DNA of 64,000 nucleotides, taken from the NCBI GenBank assembly GCA_002723085.1, contig PBNK01000001.1:1-64000 (forward strand). Direction: 5' to 3'. The notes beneath the pieces are model-generated. The model was not told the origin of the DNA. It did not search any database and worked only from the letters and a program-made list of their open reading frames with translations. Numbering within the stretch: position 1 is the first letter of the stretch; every line of letters starts with the position of its first letter. Both the position numbers and the translations under genes were made by a program. This DNA is from Crocinitomicaceae bacterium. Lineage in GTDB: Bacteria; Bacteroidota; Bacteroidia; Flavobacteriales_D; Parvicellaceae. This document shows positions 5,010 to 50,330 of the stretch, piece after piece.

Positions 5010-6212
5010 TCATCTTGAAGTTTGAAATTCGATTAATTTATTTTTTAAATTATTTCTATTAATTAGTATAAATGAAGTTAAAAGTAAAATATAAATTAAA
5101 ATTGTCCATATGTTTATGAATGGGTTTATTTCTAATTCTAAAGAGTTTTTAAGCTGTTGACTAATTAAAAATTTACATAAATAAGTTAGTGCTAAACAAG
5201 ATCCAAATATAAAAAAATAGGTTTTTATTAAAGTTTTTTCAATTGTTTTTGAAATGATTGAATTGGAATAACCAATAAGGGATAGTTGCTGAATTTCTCT
5301 TTTAGCATCGTACATAATCATTTTTGTGTAAAATAAAATCAGTAAAACACCTTGAATAATTATAATTAAACATATAATTATTTGATAGGAGAGTACACCA
5401 TTTGCTAGTTTCTGAACCACATTTTCTTTTGAAATGTTATTGCTTGTCGTTAGGTTGTTTTCAGATAAATATTTTTTTATTGCAGGATCTTGAATGTTAT
5501 TTGTGCTTATTGCAATTCTATTAATCTCTCTTTTTTCATAATTTCCATAAATTTTATTTGTGTGTTTTATGAAACTTTCTGGAACAAGTATGCTGTTTAT
5601 TTTTGATGATAGGCCGACTACACTTCCTATGAAGGTTTGTCTTTTGTTGTTTCCTCTTATATGTATTTTAAAAACAATTCCTTTTAAAAGATCAGCACTA
5701 ATTTGGGGTGTGTTTGCAGTAATAGCTATTCCGAAATTATAGGCGTCAAGGTAGTTTTTTGGTAGGATAATTGGTATGATTTCATTAGTTGGGGCCCAGT
5801 TCCAATTTTTAATTTTTATATCAATAAATTTTGAAGGAATTGATTCAAAAAAAGCCATTGTATATAAATTGGGAATGCCTAATTTATCATCTCCAACTTC
5901 AACAAAAACATTGTAGTCACAAGATAAAAAAGGAGCCATGTCAATTACAAAATCAGAATTTCTTAAAGATGTTAATTCTTTTTCTGTAAATGTGTTGTTT
6001 TTTTGGGAAAGTAAAGATGTTGTTACTTTTTTAGAAACTATTAGTAAATCATTGTCTACAGAAGAATTATTTTCTTTTGAAATCGATTTAACATTAATGT
6101 AAAGTTCAATGCTTAACAACATTATTGTTAGTCCAATAATAAAACCAATTGTAGAAATGGTTTTTGACTTTTTATTTTTGTGATGAAGAATTACTTTAAA
6201 AATGGTTTTCAT
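5010..6212 (-). CDS. FtsX-like ABC transporter permease
   Basis: 400 residues. One transmembrane helix lies near the N-terminus (about 20-40), followed by an extracytoplasmic domain of about 230 residues (45-270) and three helices near 273-298, 330-352 and 365-386. This is the topology of MacB/FtsX-type permeases. The motif YDAKREIQQLSLIGYS after the second helix corresponds to the coupling helix region of FtsX proteins. The start overlaps the stop of the upstream ATPase gene by four bases (ATGA), so the two are translationally coupled and probably form one transporter. MacB/LolCDE-type systems move lipoproteins, peptides or signals rather than importing nutrients; the substrate here is not indicated. 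Confidence 0.75.
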   Translation of the reverse strand: MKTIFKVILHHKNKKSKTISTIGFIIGLTIMLLSIELYINVKSISKENNSSVDNDLLIVSKKVTTSLLSQKNNTFTEKELTSLRNSDFVIDMAPFLSCDYNVFVEVGDDKLGIPNLYTMAFFESIPSKFIDIKIKNWNWAPTNEIIPIILPKNYLDAYNFGIAITANTPQISADLLKGIVFKIHIRGNNKRQTFIGSVVGLSSKINSILVPESFIKHTNKIYGNYEKREINRIAISTNNIQDPAIKKYLSENNLTTSNNISKENVVQKLANGVLSYQIIICLIIIIQGVLLILFYTKMIMYDAKREIQQLSLIGYSNSIISKTIEKTLIKTYFFIFGSCLALTYLCKFLISQQLKNSLELEINPFINIWTILIYILLLTSFILINRNNLKNKLIEFQTSR

Positions 6213-6850
6213 AGCTTAAGTAATTCTAAGTTGTTAAAATTATGATCATTCCCTAATGAAGTTATAATGATACTTGCATTTTGTTCAGAGATGATTTTTT
6301 GAATGAGTTGAGAAGCTTTTTCTTCATTTTCTTTATCTAGATGTGAAAAAGGTTCGTCCATGAATAACCAATCAAAAGGTTGAAGAAGAGCTCTAATAAT
6401 TGCTGTTCTTTGTTGTTGACCAATTGAAAGTTGATTACATCGTTTGTTTTTAAGAGTATTTATGTCTAGTAACTCTAAATATATTTCGATTTCTTCTTTT
6501 GTTTTATAATTGGTCAGCTCATTTTTAAGCAATAAATTTTCCCATACAGTTAAAAATGGGATCAATTCCAATTGTTGATTTACAATTGATATATTTTCTT
6601 TTCTATAATTAACCCATTGGTCATGACTTATTTGTTCGCTGTTTATTTCGTTGAAAAATAGTTCACCTTTAAAATCTTTTCTTAGTCCACAACAATATGA
6701 AATAAAGGTGCTTTTCCCTTTTCCTGAAGCAGATTTAACTATGTAGTTTTTTCCTTTTTGTAATTCAATTTCATTTCCCCATATTTCTGATTTATTAAAA
6801 TCAGTTTCTTCAATCGGTTTAGGAATTATATTTTTTAGTGTGTAATTCAA
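6209..6850 (-). CDS. ABC transporter ATP-binding protein with atypical catalytic motifs
   Basis: 213 residues, LolD/MacB-like in size. The P-loop reads SASGKGKST at residues 40-48, with Ser in place of the usual first Gly. The Q-loop is at 91-93 (NQQ), the signature is LSIGQQQR at 141-148, and Walker B is WLFMDEP at 161-167 with a D-loop HLD at 170-172. The switch position, normally His in a T-H-D motif, reads ITSLG, with Ser198 where His is expected. The P-loop change and the missing histidine suggest slow or altered ATP hydrolysis. The gene lies nine bases downstream of a T9SS cargo gene and overlaps the permease gene by four bases, so the three form one transcription unit. Confidence 0.8.
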   Translation of the reverse strand: MNYTLKNIIPKPIEETDFNKSEIWGNEIELQKGKNYIVKSASGKGKSTFISYCCGLRKDFKGELFFNEINSEQISHDQWVNYRKENISIVNQQLELIPFLTVWENLLLKNELTNYKTKEEIEIYLELLDINTLKNKRCNQLSIGQQQRTAIIRALLQPFDWLFMDEPFSHLDKENEEKASQLIQKIISEQNASIIITSLGNDHNFNNLELLKL

Positions 6851-6859
6851 TTATAATGG

Positions 6860-7666
6860 TTATCTAATGATAAATTTATCAACTATTGTACCATATTTTA
6901 AGAAATACAACCCTGATGGGTAATCAAGTTTTATACTTTCGTTGTATATCCCAGATTTAATAATTAAGCCATTTATGTTAAATATTTCATATTGATTTCC
7001 ATTTTTTAATCCTGTTACCTTAATCATATTTTTAGTTGGATTTGGGTAAATCATATTGGTGTTGTTAAAAGAACTTTGAATGTTCGTAAGGTCATTGGAT
7101 TCAACTCTTATGTTGTCAAGTTCTAGGATAAATTGATTAGAAGCATAATGTCTAAAAGCAAAGTTTATTAAAGCTCCATTTAAGTTAGAATCTAATTTCA
7201 CTTTGAAGTTAGTCCAAAAAGGAGGGACAGCAACCGTGTCAAAAATAATTTCATTTTGCATAATGCTGTCTACATTAATATGATTATAGGTGTATCTTAT
7301 TTGGATTCCATCAGGATATGAAGCATCAGTAGATTTAGCATCAAAATATAGATAGTTTCCAGTATTGCCTAATTGAATAGAAGGACTAATTAAAAAATTA
7401 TTTGCAGAAGTAGTATCTGTAAACCAAGAGGTAGCGGCAACTACAGTGTCTCCAATTCCTGTTGAATCAATATTTTCTATAGCATGAAAAGCTCCATATA
7501 AACCAACGACACTTGGATCATTGTAGGGTGTTGCAAGATCTGCATCAATCATGCTCCAAGAAGATGGTATACCTTGATTGAAGTTTTCGCTGAAAATAAC
7601 ATTAATCTGTGCTGAAAGTGTTGATGTGAATAAAAGAACCCCTAAAGTGGTAAGGTATTTGTACAT
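6860..7666 (-). CDS. Secreted protein with T9SS type A sorting domain
   Basis: 268 residues from the ATG at 7666. This start is preferred over an upstream in-frame start because it places a signal peptide (MYKYLTTLGVLLF, ending STLSAQ) at the N-terminus and fits the TACATTTG promoter box 19 bases upstream. Residues about 20-190 resemble the choice-of-anchor J / cleaved-adhesin jelly-roll fold: FSENFNQGIPSSWS at the start and NFLISPSIQL, then LELDNIRVE at the end. The C-terminus has the type A sorting signature: YPNPTKN, then YEIFNINGLII, SGLYFLKY and a final KFIIR. It is exported through the Sec system and T9SS to the cell surface. It heads an operon with the degenerate ABC ATPase and permease. 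Confidence 0.85.
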   Translation of the reverse strand: MYKYLTTLGVLLFTSTLSAQINVIFSENFNQGIPSSWSMIDADLATPYNDPSVVGLYGAFHAIENIDSTGIGDTVVAATSWFTDTTSANNFLISPSIQLGNTGNYLYFDAKSTDASYPDGIQIRYTYNHINVDSIMQNEIIFDTVAVPPFWTNFKVKLDSNLNGALINFAFRHYASNQFILELDNIRVESNDLTNIQSSFNNTNMIYPNPTKNMIKVTGLKNGNQYEIFNINGLIIKSGIYNESIKLDYPSGLYFLKYGTIVDKFIIR

Positions 7667-47802: not shown

Positions 47803-48537
47803 TTAGTTATTTTTTAAGGCAGTAATAATTAATCTGTTACTATTTTCGTTGTATTCTTCAAGATTGTAGTTGCCAAAAGTTTTATTAATTGTAAAATTAG
47901 ACTTTTTTAAAATTTCACTAAACATTTTTAAATTAATTAACTGAACTTTTTCATAGAAATGTTTTTCCTTATTTTTTTGATTTATATAAATATCTTTAAT
48001 TATAAAATTATTTTCAATTTTTCTTGAAATAGTGTATTTAGTTTTGTTAACTATTTTTATTTCATTTTTTACAAGGTTATTGATTACTTTTTCTGGATTA
48101 AGATAGTCTATAACAATAAGTCCATTTTTCTTTAAGTGTTTATTGCAATTGTCTAAAACTAAAGAATTGTCATTGAAGTTTTCAAAGTATCCAAAACTGG
48201 TAAATAAGTTAAAAATAAAATCAAATTTTTTATTTAAGCTAAAATTTCTCATGTCACCTGTAAGGAATTTTAGATTTTCTTTGTTAAATTTTTTCGCAAT
48301 ATTAATGCTGTTTTTAGATAGATCAATACCTGTTACTTTTTGAAAATAATTACTCATTTTTAAGGCGTGTCTACCTTTTCCACAAGCTAAATCAAGAACT
48401 TCACTACATGGGTCTAATTCTAGTTTGTTTATAAGGTTTTCAATAAAAATATTCGCTTCATCTTCATCTCTGTTTTTATATAATTCATGATAAAAATTTG
48501 TGTCAAACCATGATTCAAACCATATTTCTTTATTCAT
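47803..48537 (-). CDS. Class I SAM-dependent methyltransferase
   Basis: 244 residues. The SAM-binding motif I is VLDLACGKGRHAL near residue 42, followed by motif Post-I VTGIDLSKNSI with the acidic residue that binds the ribose. FLTGDMRNFSL provides motif II and FDFIFNLFTSFGYFEN motif III. The N-terminus (IWFESWFDTNFYHELYKNRDE) matches a common Bacteroidota subfamily whose substrate is unknown. The Lys/Asn-rich C-terminal third probably holds the substrate site. A TATATTTG box lies only five bases before the ATG, so the transcript may be leaderless. It is followed without gap by the ZIP transporter gene; no functional link is evident. Confidence 0.85.
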   Translation of the reverse strand: MNKEIWFESWFDTNFYHELYKNRDEDEANIFIENLINKLELDPCSEVLDLACGKGRHALKMSNYFQKVTGIDLSKNSINIAKKFNKENLKFLTGDMRNFSLNKKFDFIFNLFTSFGYFENFNDNSLVLDNCNKHLKKNGLIVIDYLNPEKVINNLVKNEIKIVNKTKYTISRKIENNFIIKDIYINQKNKEKHFYEKVQLINLKMFSEILKKSNFTINKTFGNYNLEEYNENSNRLIITALKNN

Positions 48538-48602: not shown

Positions 48603-48635
48603 TTTGAGTTTTAATTTTAGTATTTATTATATTTG
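48603..48635 (+). promoter_or_regulatory. Promoter of the siaB-siaC operon
   Basis: TTTG (48603-48606), a 21-base spacer and TATATTTG (48628-48635), with the ATG 16 bases further on. Both elements match the consensus. Confidence 0.65.
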
Positions 48636-48651
48636 AATGAATTAAAAATCG

Positions 48652-49206
48652 ATGGATACATTCGACCTTTATAGTTTGATGGAAAGAGATCATGTGTTGT
48701 TGGCCTTTAAAGGTTCAATAACTTCTGATTTACTTACATCAGTTCTTCAGATTATGGAGTCGAAAATGGATGATTTGAACGATGCTCCTAAAACAAAGAG
48801 AAGAGTTTTTAATGTTTTAGTTGAGTGTCTTCAAAATTTATACCATCATATTGATGATTTTCAAATTGAAGGAGAACCTATGGAGGTTGCTTTAAAGAAA
48901 TCAGCAATATTTAGTATAAGTAGAACAGAAGAATCTTATAATATTATTACTGGTAATTTTATTCATAAGAGCAATGTTTCTACTGTGACTGAAAAAATCG
49001 ATTTCATTAATTCATTAAATAAAGACGAATTAAAACAACACTATAAAAAAATGTTGTCTAATGGGGAAATGAGTGAAAAAGGTGGAGGAGGCCTAGGTTT
49101 TATTGATATTGCAAAAAAATCTGGCGAAAAATTGATTTATAAAATTAGAGAAATTGATCCAAATTACTCATTCTTTACATTAACAGTTAAAATATCAAAA
49201 AACTAA
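48652..49206 (+). CDS. SiaB family protein kinase (DUF6272)
   Basis: 184 residues, cytoplasmic, a small GHKL-type ATPase. It resembles SiaB, the kinase that phosphorylates the regulator SiaC in Pseudomonas aeruginosa. LVECLQNLYHHIDDF near residue 58-72 holds the N-box Asn and its helix, and SEKGGGGLGFIDIAKKSGE near 140-158 is the Gly-rich ATP-lid motif. The opening LMERDHVLLAFKGSITSDLLTSVLQIME is typical for the family. The siaC-like gene follows after four bases. In Pseudomonas the module also contains the phosphatase SiaA and the diguanylate cyclase SiaD; neither is here. The pair is probably a partner-switching signalling module with an unidentified output. Confidence 0.85.
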   Translation: MDTFDLYSLMERDHVLLAFKGSITSDLLTSVLQIMESKMDDLNDAPKTKRRVFNVLVECLQNLYHHIDDFQIEGEPMEVALKKSAIFSISRTEESYNIITGNFIHKSNVSTVTEKIDFINSLNKDELKQHYKKMLSNGEMSEKGGGGLGFIDIAKKSGEKLIYKIREIDPNYSFFTLTVKISKN

Positions 49207-49210
49207 AACT

Positions 49211-49585
49211 ATGGATGATTTAAAAATTGAAGGTTCTGCTAAAACTCCAACTGTTGAGTTCAATTCTAATGGCGATTTACATTTAAAAGGTAGGTCTATA
49301 CCGGAAAATTCAATTGAATTTTATAAACCTATTATAGATTGGATTGGGAATTATGGAGAAAATGTAAATACAGAAACTGTATTAAATGTTCAATTAGAAT
49401 ATTTTAACACCAGTTCTTCAAAGTGCATCCTTGATGTGTTTAAAAAACTTGAGACATTAAGTGGTTCTAAAGTGAGTATTAAATGGCATTATGAAGAAGA
49501 TGATGAGGATATGCTCGAAGCTGGTGAGGACTACGAGGCAATTATTGATTTGCCTTTTGAAATGATTGAGGTAGAAGAGATTTAA
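49211..49585 (+). CDS. SiaC family regulatory phosphoprotein (DUF1987)
   Basis: 124 residues, standard for the family, with a STAS-like fold. The N-terminus IEGSAKTPTVEFNSNGDLHLKGRSIPEN is the DUF1987 hallmark, followed by FYKPIIDWI. LNVQLEYFNTSSSKCILDVFKKL contains the expected phospho-acceptor, the Thr67/Ser68 region, equivalent to the Ser/Thr of anti-anti-sigma-like proteins. The acidic end YEEDDEDMLEAGEDYEAIIDLPFE completes the fold. In Pseudomonas, unphosphorylated SiaC activates the diguanylate cyclase SiaD; Bacteroidota generally have few such cyclases, so the target here is likely something else. Cotranscribed with siaB and ended by the hairpin at 49606-49633. Confidence 0.88.
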   Translation: MDDLKIEGSAKTPTVEFNSNGDLHLKGRSIPENSIEFYKPIIDWIGNYGENVNTETVLNVQLEYFNTSSSKCILDVFKKLETLSGSKVSIKWHYEEDDEDMLEAGEDYEAIIDLPFEMIEVEEI

Positions 49586-49605
49586 ATGTTGAATTTTTAT
49601 TTTAA

Positions 49606-49633
49606 GGCTGTCCATAGAGACAGCCTTTTTTTT
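49606..49633 (+). terminator. Intrinsic terminator abutting the cmk start codon
   Basis: GGCTGTC and GACAGCC pair around a six-base loop and are followed by eight T. The hairpin ends the siaB-siaC transcript, but its T run finishes four bases before the cmk ATG at 49638. Confidence 0.85.
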
Positions 49634-49637
49634 GTCT

Positions 49638-50330
49638 ATGAAAAATAGTTTAGTTATAACTTTAGATGGTCATTCAGCTTGTGGGAAAAGTACATTAGCT
49701 AAGTTGATTGCTAAAGAAATGAATTATAAGTATATAGATACAGGAGCTATGTATAGGGCAATTACATTTTTTTTTGATGACAATTGTTTAATTGATAATC
49801 AAGGTTTACTAAAAAATAATGCTTTTGATTATTTAGATAAAATTAAAATTGGATTTTCTAAATTGGATGAAAAAGGACAAAGTTTTGTTACTTTAAATGG
49901 AGTTGTTGTTGAATCTAAAATAAGAAATTTAGAAATTTCAAATTTAGTTAGTGAAGTAAGTAAACATAAACCTATTAGAAGAAAAATGGTAGAAATTCAA
50001 CAAAGCTATTCTTCAGATGGTGGTTTGGTTATGGATGGAAGAGATATTGGTAGTGTAGTTTTTCCAAATGCAGACATAAAATTTTGGGTTACAGCTTCAT
50101 CAAAAACAAGAGCTAAAAGACGCTTATCCGAAATGCTAGATAAAAATATTAAGGTAGATTTAAAAGACGTTATAGACAATATTTCAAGAAGAGATTATGA
50201 AGATCAAAATAGAAAAGAAAGCCCTTTAATAAAACCAATTGGAGCAATTGAAATTGATAATTCAAATCTTTCTATTAATCAAACATTAGATTTGGCAATG
50301 AATCATGTAAATTCATTGTTGAATAAATAA
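49638..50330 (+). CDS. cmk: Cytidylate kinase
   Basis: 230 residues from the ATG at 49638; a TTG two codons upstream lies in the terminator T run and is disfavoured. It phosphorylates CMP and dCMP with ATP. The P-loop reads GHSACGKSTLAK, with Ala-Cys where Ser-Gly is more usual. YIDTGAMYRAITF, MDGRDIGSVVFPNADIKFW and ASSKTRAKRR for substrate and lid are typical. The end RRDYEDQNRKESPLIKP is a conserved cmk segment. It is followed five bases later by truA and then an ABC exporter, probably one operon. No promoter of its own is obvious; transcription must come through or from within the hairpin region just upstream. Confidence 0.93.
   Translation: MKNSLVITLDGHSACGKSTLAKLIAKEMNYKYIDTGAMYRAITFFFDDNCLIDNQGLLKNNAFDYLDKIKIGFSKLDEKGQSFVTLNGVVVESKIRNLEISNLVSEVSKHKPIRRKMVEIQQSYSSDGGLVMDGRDIGSVVFPNADIKFWVTASSKTRAKRRLSEMLDKNIKVDLKDVIDNISRRDYEDQNRKESPLIKPIGAIEIDNSNLSINQTLDLAMNHVNSLLNK

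Follow-up and report, generated by a model that had tools for sequence, protein, structure and literature searches.

What does a SiaB-SiaC pair control when neither SiaA nor SiaD is encoded nearby? SiaC (DUF1987) has so far a single described role, the activation of a diguanylate cyclase. A siaB-siaC pair in the genome of a Crocinitomicaceae bacterium (GenBank assembly GCA_002723085.1, contig PBNK01000001.1) raises this question. It lies within positions 1 to 64,000 of the contig, and this whole stretch of 64,000 nucleotides is referred to here as the window. A sequence-only reading of the locus had proposed that the output is probably a target other than SiaD-made c-di-GMP, perhaps T9SS adhesins or surface motility.

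The siaB-siaC pair and its transcription unit

The first gene, siaB (48652-49206, + strand, 184 aa), encodes a SiaB-family (GHKL-like) Ser/Thr kinase, and the second, siaC (49211-49585, + strand, 124 aa), encodes a SiaC (DUF1987) STAS-like phosphoprotein. The two genes have the same orientation and are separated by 4 nt. Their assignment as a SiaB-type kinase and a DUF1987 SiaC protein was borne out by family profiles: SiaB passed the cut-offs of PF19788 (E 8.7e-40, 135.9 bits against 26.6) and of the NCBIfam SiaB-family kinase subfamily NF038262 (155.8 bits against 85), and SiaC passed that of PF09345 (E 1.4e-39, 134.9 bits against 24.5). Moreover, the closest PDB relative of both proteins was the Pseudomonas SiaB/SiaC entry 6kko. 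Both scored under the cut-offs of the Pseudomonas equivalogs, SiaB with 83.8 bits against NF038264 (cut-off 225) and SiaC with 91.3 bits against NF038265 (cut-off 150). Thus, they are members of these families and, by the NCBIfam standard, not Pseudomonas orthologs.

The residues expected to matter for phosphotransfer are conserved. The predicted catalytic Glu58 of SiaB (codon 48823-48825, + strand) aligned with Pseudomonas Glu61 of 6kko_A, and the glycine-rich G-box GGGGLG is retained. In the acceptor region of SiaC, LEYFNTSSSKC, the presumed phospho-acceptor Thr67 (in NTSS; codon 49409-49411, + strand) aligned with Thr68 of 6kko chain C, and this position was occupied by Thr in 95 of 95 window-type SiaC sequences. 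In the 14 family members compared, SiaC shared 73-91% identity with the copy in the window. Three features were invariant: the motif KGRSIPENSIEFYKP, which begins with K26, the motif LEYFNTSSSKCILD, and an extended acidic stretch at the C terminus. SiaB would thus be expected to phosphorylate SiaC on Thr67. The arrangement resembles the SiaABCD system of Pseudomonas aeruginosa (PA0172-PA0169) in its tandem SiaB kinase and SiaC with an acceptor Thr. Unlike that system, the genome studied here (2.43 Mb in 46 contigs, estimated 95% complete) has four genes for SiaC and another four that together encode five SiaB domains, one protein carrying two in tandem. The gene for this tandem protein is found on another contig (C37, locus L019, 7971-9059, - strand), where it is followed by a siaC and then by a convergent gene for a propeller-SpoIIE phosphatase. 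A 364-aa SiaB protein of similar size is encoded at locus L202 (3721-4815).

The pair had also been read as a two-gene unit with its own terminator, and this was confirmed by comparison with related loci. An intrinsic terminator, formed by a hairpin and a T-run, occupies the space after siaC and before cmk (49604-49627, + strand), and a hairpin with a T-run separated the two genes in 35 of the 36 loci examined in which siaC is upstream of cmk, with stem sequences that differed. This recurrence with differing stems indicates that siaB-siaC is a unit of its own, despite a gene order siaB-siaC-cmk that is kept in 24 of 29 family loci. The likely ATG of cmk (49638-50330, + strand) is found at 49638, directly after the T-run (window 49628-49640), so that transcription of cmk would either start within or just behind the terminator or need read-through. 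On the other side, the divergent neighbor of siaB is a methyltransferase gene (47803-48537, - strand), with the same gene cluster found in 38 of 80 named loci.

The further claim of a near-ideal promoter stood only in part. As a sigma-70 promoter, the site scored 9/12, and a scan of the window returned 18 such sites against 25.0 expected; the case for a sigma-70 promoter is therefore weak. However, an exact match to TTTG-N21-TATATTTG, which we take to be the Bacteroidota promoter consensus, was present upstream of siaB (48603-48635, + strand). In the window as a whole this pattern was not commoner than chance (8 found against 8.62 expected), but it was enriched upstream of siaB, where 11 of 89 relatives had it and base shuffles gave 0.2.

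SiaA-type phosphatases and the search for GGDEF domains

SiaA had been considered absent. Indeed, none is encoded nearby within the window, but the genome as a whole encodes nine SpoIIE-type phosphatases, eight of which carry the SiaA-type signature DG[YF]xDQ. The comparison with the PDB covered two of these proteins. The first, a HAMP-PP2C protein (C2:64799-66619), had 6k4e (SiaA-PP2C) as its sole match (E 1.2e-31); the second, the 413-residue protein that lacks the signature, matched Rv1364c and SpoIIE and not SiaA. The genome is thus like P. aeruginosa in possessing SiaA-type PP2C phosphatases, one of them with the HAMP-PP2C layout, and unlike it in that the operon itself contains no phosphatase gene.

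Elsewhere in the phylum, 13 of 80 named loci have a SpoIIE phosphatase gene immediately ahead of the orthologous siaBC pair; 12 of these phosphatases have a propeller sensor and one is a protein of 467 aa. The signature DG[YF]xDQ was found in 16 of 18 members of two siaBC-linked phosphatase clusters, the other two being proteins without that part. In the phosphatase-linked loci, a lipoprotein of about 280 residues is encoded between the phosphatase and siaB-siaC, and a lipoprotein-like family of about 280 aa was found directly beside siaB in 19 of the 80 named loci (L120, L126, L139, L084 and L086 among them). This siaB-adjacent protein gave no Pfam or NCBIfam match. Because its expected location is outside the cytosol, we read it as a possible input component rather than as the output.

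The abundance of the two families is also correlated. Across 39 family genomes, the rank correlation between SiaC and SpoIIE copy numbers was 0.81, and 0.48 after removal of genome size, both values being uncorrected for kinship. As a control, STAS and SpoIIE copy numbers gave 0.02 after removal of genome size in the same 39 genomes. The window genome has four matches to PF01740 (STAS), two of them in open frames of about 550 aa. Three family genomes (G028, G030 and G031) encode 32 to 36 SpoIIE phosphatases each together with 6-7 SiaC copies, which is a very large sensor fan-in. One or more SiaA-type phosphatases, membrane bound or cytosolic, would then remove the phosphate from SiaC in trans, and since the SiaB kinase would be opposed by several phosphatases, SiaC would report the balance of several sensors.

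This logic of a kinase, a STAS-like phosphoprotein and a SpoIIE phosphatase is shared with RsbU-RsbV-RsbW partner switching, in which RsbV and RsbW form a STAS/GHKL pair. Unlike in that system, SiaB and SiaC stand in place of RsbW and RsbV, and ordinary STAS proteins are few and do not track SpoIIE after the size correction. SiaC is nevertheless STAS-like in structure (PMC7647112) and SiaB is GHKL-like, which favors a reading in which SiaB itself is the output, as for RsbW, unphosphorylated SiaC sequestering it from a sigma factor or another client. We consider this improbable, given that Pseudomonas SiaB is described as a kinase working via SiaC and SiaD and that no recurring sigma factor or client gene was found beside siaBC in the neighborhoods compared.

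The reported absence of SiaD extended to the whole genome, in which no GGDEF domain was detected by a search that was positive in 8 of 14 control genomes. Of a complete siaA/siaD set elsewhere in the genome, the siaA-like half is therefore present, but siaD is not. SiaC was found in all 39 family genomes, with 193 matches overall. Only two of the 39 had a GGDEF match: a strong one, whose genome carries 7% contamination, and a weak one, under the family cut-off. These counts show that most SiaC biology in the lineage has to be something other than control of a GGDEF protein. A survey of 198 genomes of the phylum, each at least 90% complete, gave SiaC in 13 and GGDEF in 108, weak single GGDEF matches (about E 1e-7 to 1e-20) being present in many of the surveyed genomes. 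In the window's class, the five genomes with SiaC (G000, G083, G087, G184 and G224) were all without GGDEF. The eight SiaC-bearing genomes of other classes all had it, five of them by a single weak match.

We thus rejected c-di-GMP as the output, since GGDEF is absent from the genome and present in only 2 of 39 family members, and the lack of SiaD supports the proposal that the target is a different one. A classical SiaABCD system, whose output would still be a diverged diguanylate cyclase or imported c-di-GMP, does have complete phosphatase-siaB-siaC-GGDEF operons in its favor in other classes of the phylum (L198 and L199). However, with the GGDEF search empty in this genome, positive in the controls, and yielding within the family only the weak match and the one from the contaminated genome, this explanation is largely refuted and has very little probability left.

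Putative stalk effectors behind siaC in other classes

The partners of SiaC outside the window's class were examined in eight genomes with nine loci. In eight of the nine, the product of the gene directly after siaC has a short helical stalk that bears the motif [ILVM]x[KR][ILVM][GS]DxxQ. According to PMC8457831, the SiaC-binding motif of Pseudomonas SiaD has Ser82, Asp83 and Gln86 at the equivalent place, and the same correspondence was seen in our PDB alignment. The pattern, which was written after the stalk had been spotted by eye, matched 12 times in 569,000 residues against 1.0 expected in shuffles; eight of these matches are the siaC-following genes and two are one window gene counted twice. 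What is attached to the stalk differs between loci. In L198 and L199, where a propeller phosphatase and siaB come first, it is fused to GGDEF; the fused part is a histidine kinase in L200, a SpoIIE phosphatase in L211 and a membrane segment in L207. In L208, L209 and L210 it stands alone, and in two of these three it precedes a large protein that we named, by reading its sequence, as CbxX-type AAA ATPase-like. In these sister classes, the partners of siaC form a series of swapped outputs behind one motif. Locus L207 also carries, beside siaC and the stalk gene and near flagellar-looking genes, a natural fusion of a receiver, a SiaA-like PP2C and SiaB (5462-7339, - strand).

A profile built from the eight stalk sequences was partly that of a generic coiled coil, its top PDB match being a designed protein (E 0.0038) and Pseudomonas SiaD its second (E 0.04). 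With this weak profile, which retrieves SiaD itself only at E 0.04, no match at E 0.1 or better was obtained in the window genome. In the 39 family genomes there was none at E 0.001 or better; three weak matches had E values from 0.009 to 0.09, and one of them (L214) is, by its appearance, presumably a phenylacetate-oxygenase subunit. At this sensitivity, a stalk-type effector hidden in the family found no support.

The core Tyr65-Asn67-Thr68 of SiaC did not vary across the 95 window-type sequences, and Ser69 hardly did. The positions that contact the SiaD stalk are altered and yet nearly fixed: D29R in 94 sequences, Y31I in 94, D79K in 93, L107A in 95 and D114I in 95. These stalk-facing residues are a further difference from P. 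aeruginosa. The change R103D is also common in the stalk-linked SiaC group and thus does not discriminate between the two.

A TerB-FHA-like-ABC exporter as candidate effector

T9SS adhesins or surface motility, which had been suggested as the output, and gliding were not supported, since nothing related to them recurred in the siaBC neighborhoods. The comparative evidence pointed instead to an exporter of about 1030 residues, composed of an ABC ATPase and an ABC-2 membrane part (ABCG-type), with a cytosolic N-terminal part in front. Its gene is no more than 6 kb away from siaBC in 18 of the 80 named loci. Among cultured relatives, Crocinitomix catalasitica ATCC 23190 (L097) carries the siaB-siaC pair, and in Marinifilum sp. 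N1E240 (L137) the pair adjoins the exporter operon. An AlphaFold2 model of the N-terminal 250 residues (mean pLDDT 81.4) contains a TerB-like bundle (2h5n, Z 8.9; 2ou3, Z 7.0) and an FHA-like fold. The latter accounted for most of the 50 entries listed, at Z about 6 to 7, values that fall where chance arrangements occur, although the listed entries were nearly all FHA; the best Foldseek E value was 0.02. The canonical FHA pattern GR/SxxH was not evident in a sequence alignment of 13 exporters, which tends to speak against a canonical phosphothreonine reading.

A comparable layout is known from Mycobacterium tuberculosis, where Rv1747, with PknF and Rv2623, is an ABC exporter with a cytosolic FHA part; according to PMC5549992, its regulation involves a bound Thr-phosphorylated partner. 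The exporter of the window's class differs in having a TerB-like domain with one FHA-like fold in which residues for reading phosphothreonine are not evident, and SiaC would be its partner by inference.

The distribution of the exporter was followed with a profile (A4) of its N-terminal part, built from copies beside siaC and run on the 198 phylum genomes, which cover the window genome out of the 39 family genomes. It matched six, five at E < 1e-50 and the sixth, of the same order but without SiaC, at 2e-4. The five strong matches coincide exactly with the genomes of the window's class that carry SiaC, and the exporter was absent from all eight genomes of other classes that do so. Both SiaC and the exporter are present in three genomes of family f9, and both are missing from a fourth (G114). 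The co-occurrence had a hypergeometric probability of 5.3e-7, a value that ignores kinship; the genomes behind it represent about three lineages (families f1, f3 and f9). The exporter gene adjoins siaC in four of the five genomes, convergently in G083 and co-directionally in G087, G184 and G224 (family f9). Apart from f9, it faces siaBC in the named siaBC-exporter loci and shares no operon with it. The copy in the window genome has 1074 residues and shares 53% identity with that of L131. It is on contig C27, unlinked to siaBC, and is preceded by the same two small genes as elsewhere, for a lipoprotein-like protein of 298 residues and a protein of 150 residues.

Our best explanation, held with confidence slightly below even, is a SiaABC switch with an output other than c-di-GMP and with this exporter as the candidate effector in the window's class. 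The effector would not be a diguanylate cyclase and most probably, in this class, would be the exporter encoded with its two secreted or lipoprotein partners. The altered and nearly fixed stalk-facing residues of SiaC also count in favor of this reading. Its cytosolic N-terminal TerB/FHA-like part would provide the docking site for SiaC. Binding is expected from just one of the two SiaC phospho-states; in Pseudomonas it is the free, unphosphorylated form that binds the effector, whereas the partner bound by Rv1747 is Thr-phosphorylated.

The unlinked position in the window genome and the mostly facing orientation speak against the exporter, and the co-occurrence could result from shared inheritance. 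The same switch might therefore act on another effector that does not make c-di-GMP, the exporter being merely a co-inherited neighbor and the SiaC surface being conserved for that other effector and for several phosphatases. This is a substantial alternative, to which we assign a probability only a little lower than that of the exporter reading. It agrees with the absence of GGDEF, with the lack of linkage in the window genome and with the empty search of the 39 family genomes for stalk-type effectors at a threshold of E 0.001, as well as with the distinct and nearly invariant SiaC surface. Against it stands the joint presence of exporter and SiaC in all five genomes of the class, with adjacency in four and in two relative orientations.

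If the exporter reading is correct, the SiaABC switch of SiaC-bearing Bacteroidia might have exchanged its role in making a second messenger for the direct gating of an exporter. Across the phylum, SiaC would then be a general adaptor whose outputs were swapped among diguanylate cyclase, histidine kinase, PP2C, AAA-linked and ABC-exporter effectors; we regard this broader view as possible and somewhat doubtful. DUF1987 proteins were proposed as general modulators of adjacent proteins in the discussion of an earlier paper. Among the CC-licensed papers searched, none was found that links SiaC to an exporter or to stalk effectors lacking GGDEF. For the window's class, the comparative data provide one specific candidate effector. 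If true, several kinds of effector would be driven by one phospho-switch, and a likely substrate would be available for many SpoIIE sensor phosphatases that are so far unassigned in these bacteria.

SiaC paralogs were compared at 43 loci. A PP2C gene was found within four genes in 10 of the 43 and siaB in 11, and no single partner recurred among these loci. In nine SiaC paralogs of family genomes, the phospho-acceptor position is occupied by Ile or Val (L158, L165, L168, L173, L178, L185, L189, L192 and L193). Judged by this substitution, they look like SiaC proteins incapable of phosphorylation, and most of them adjoin a conserved gene set that includes a response-regulator-like protein.
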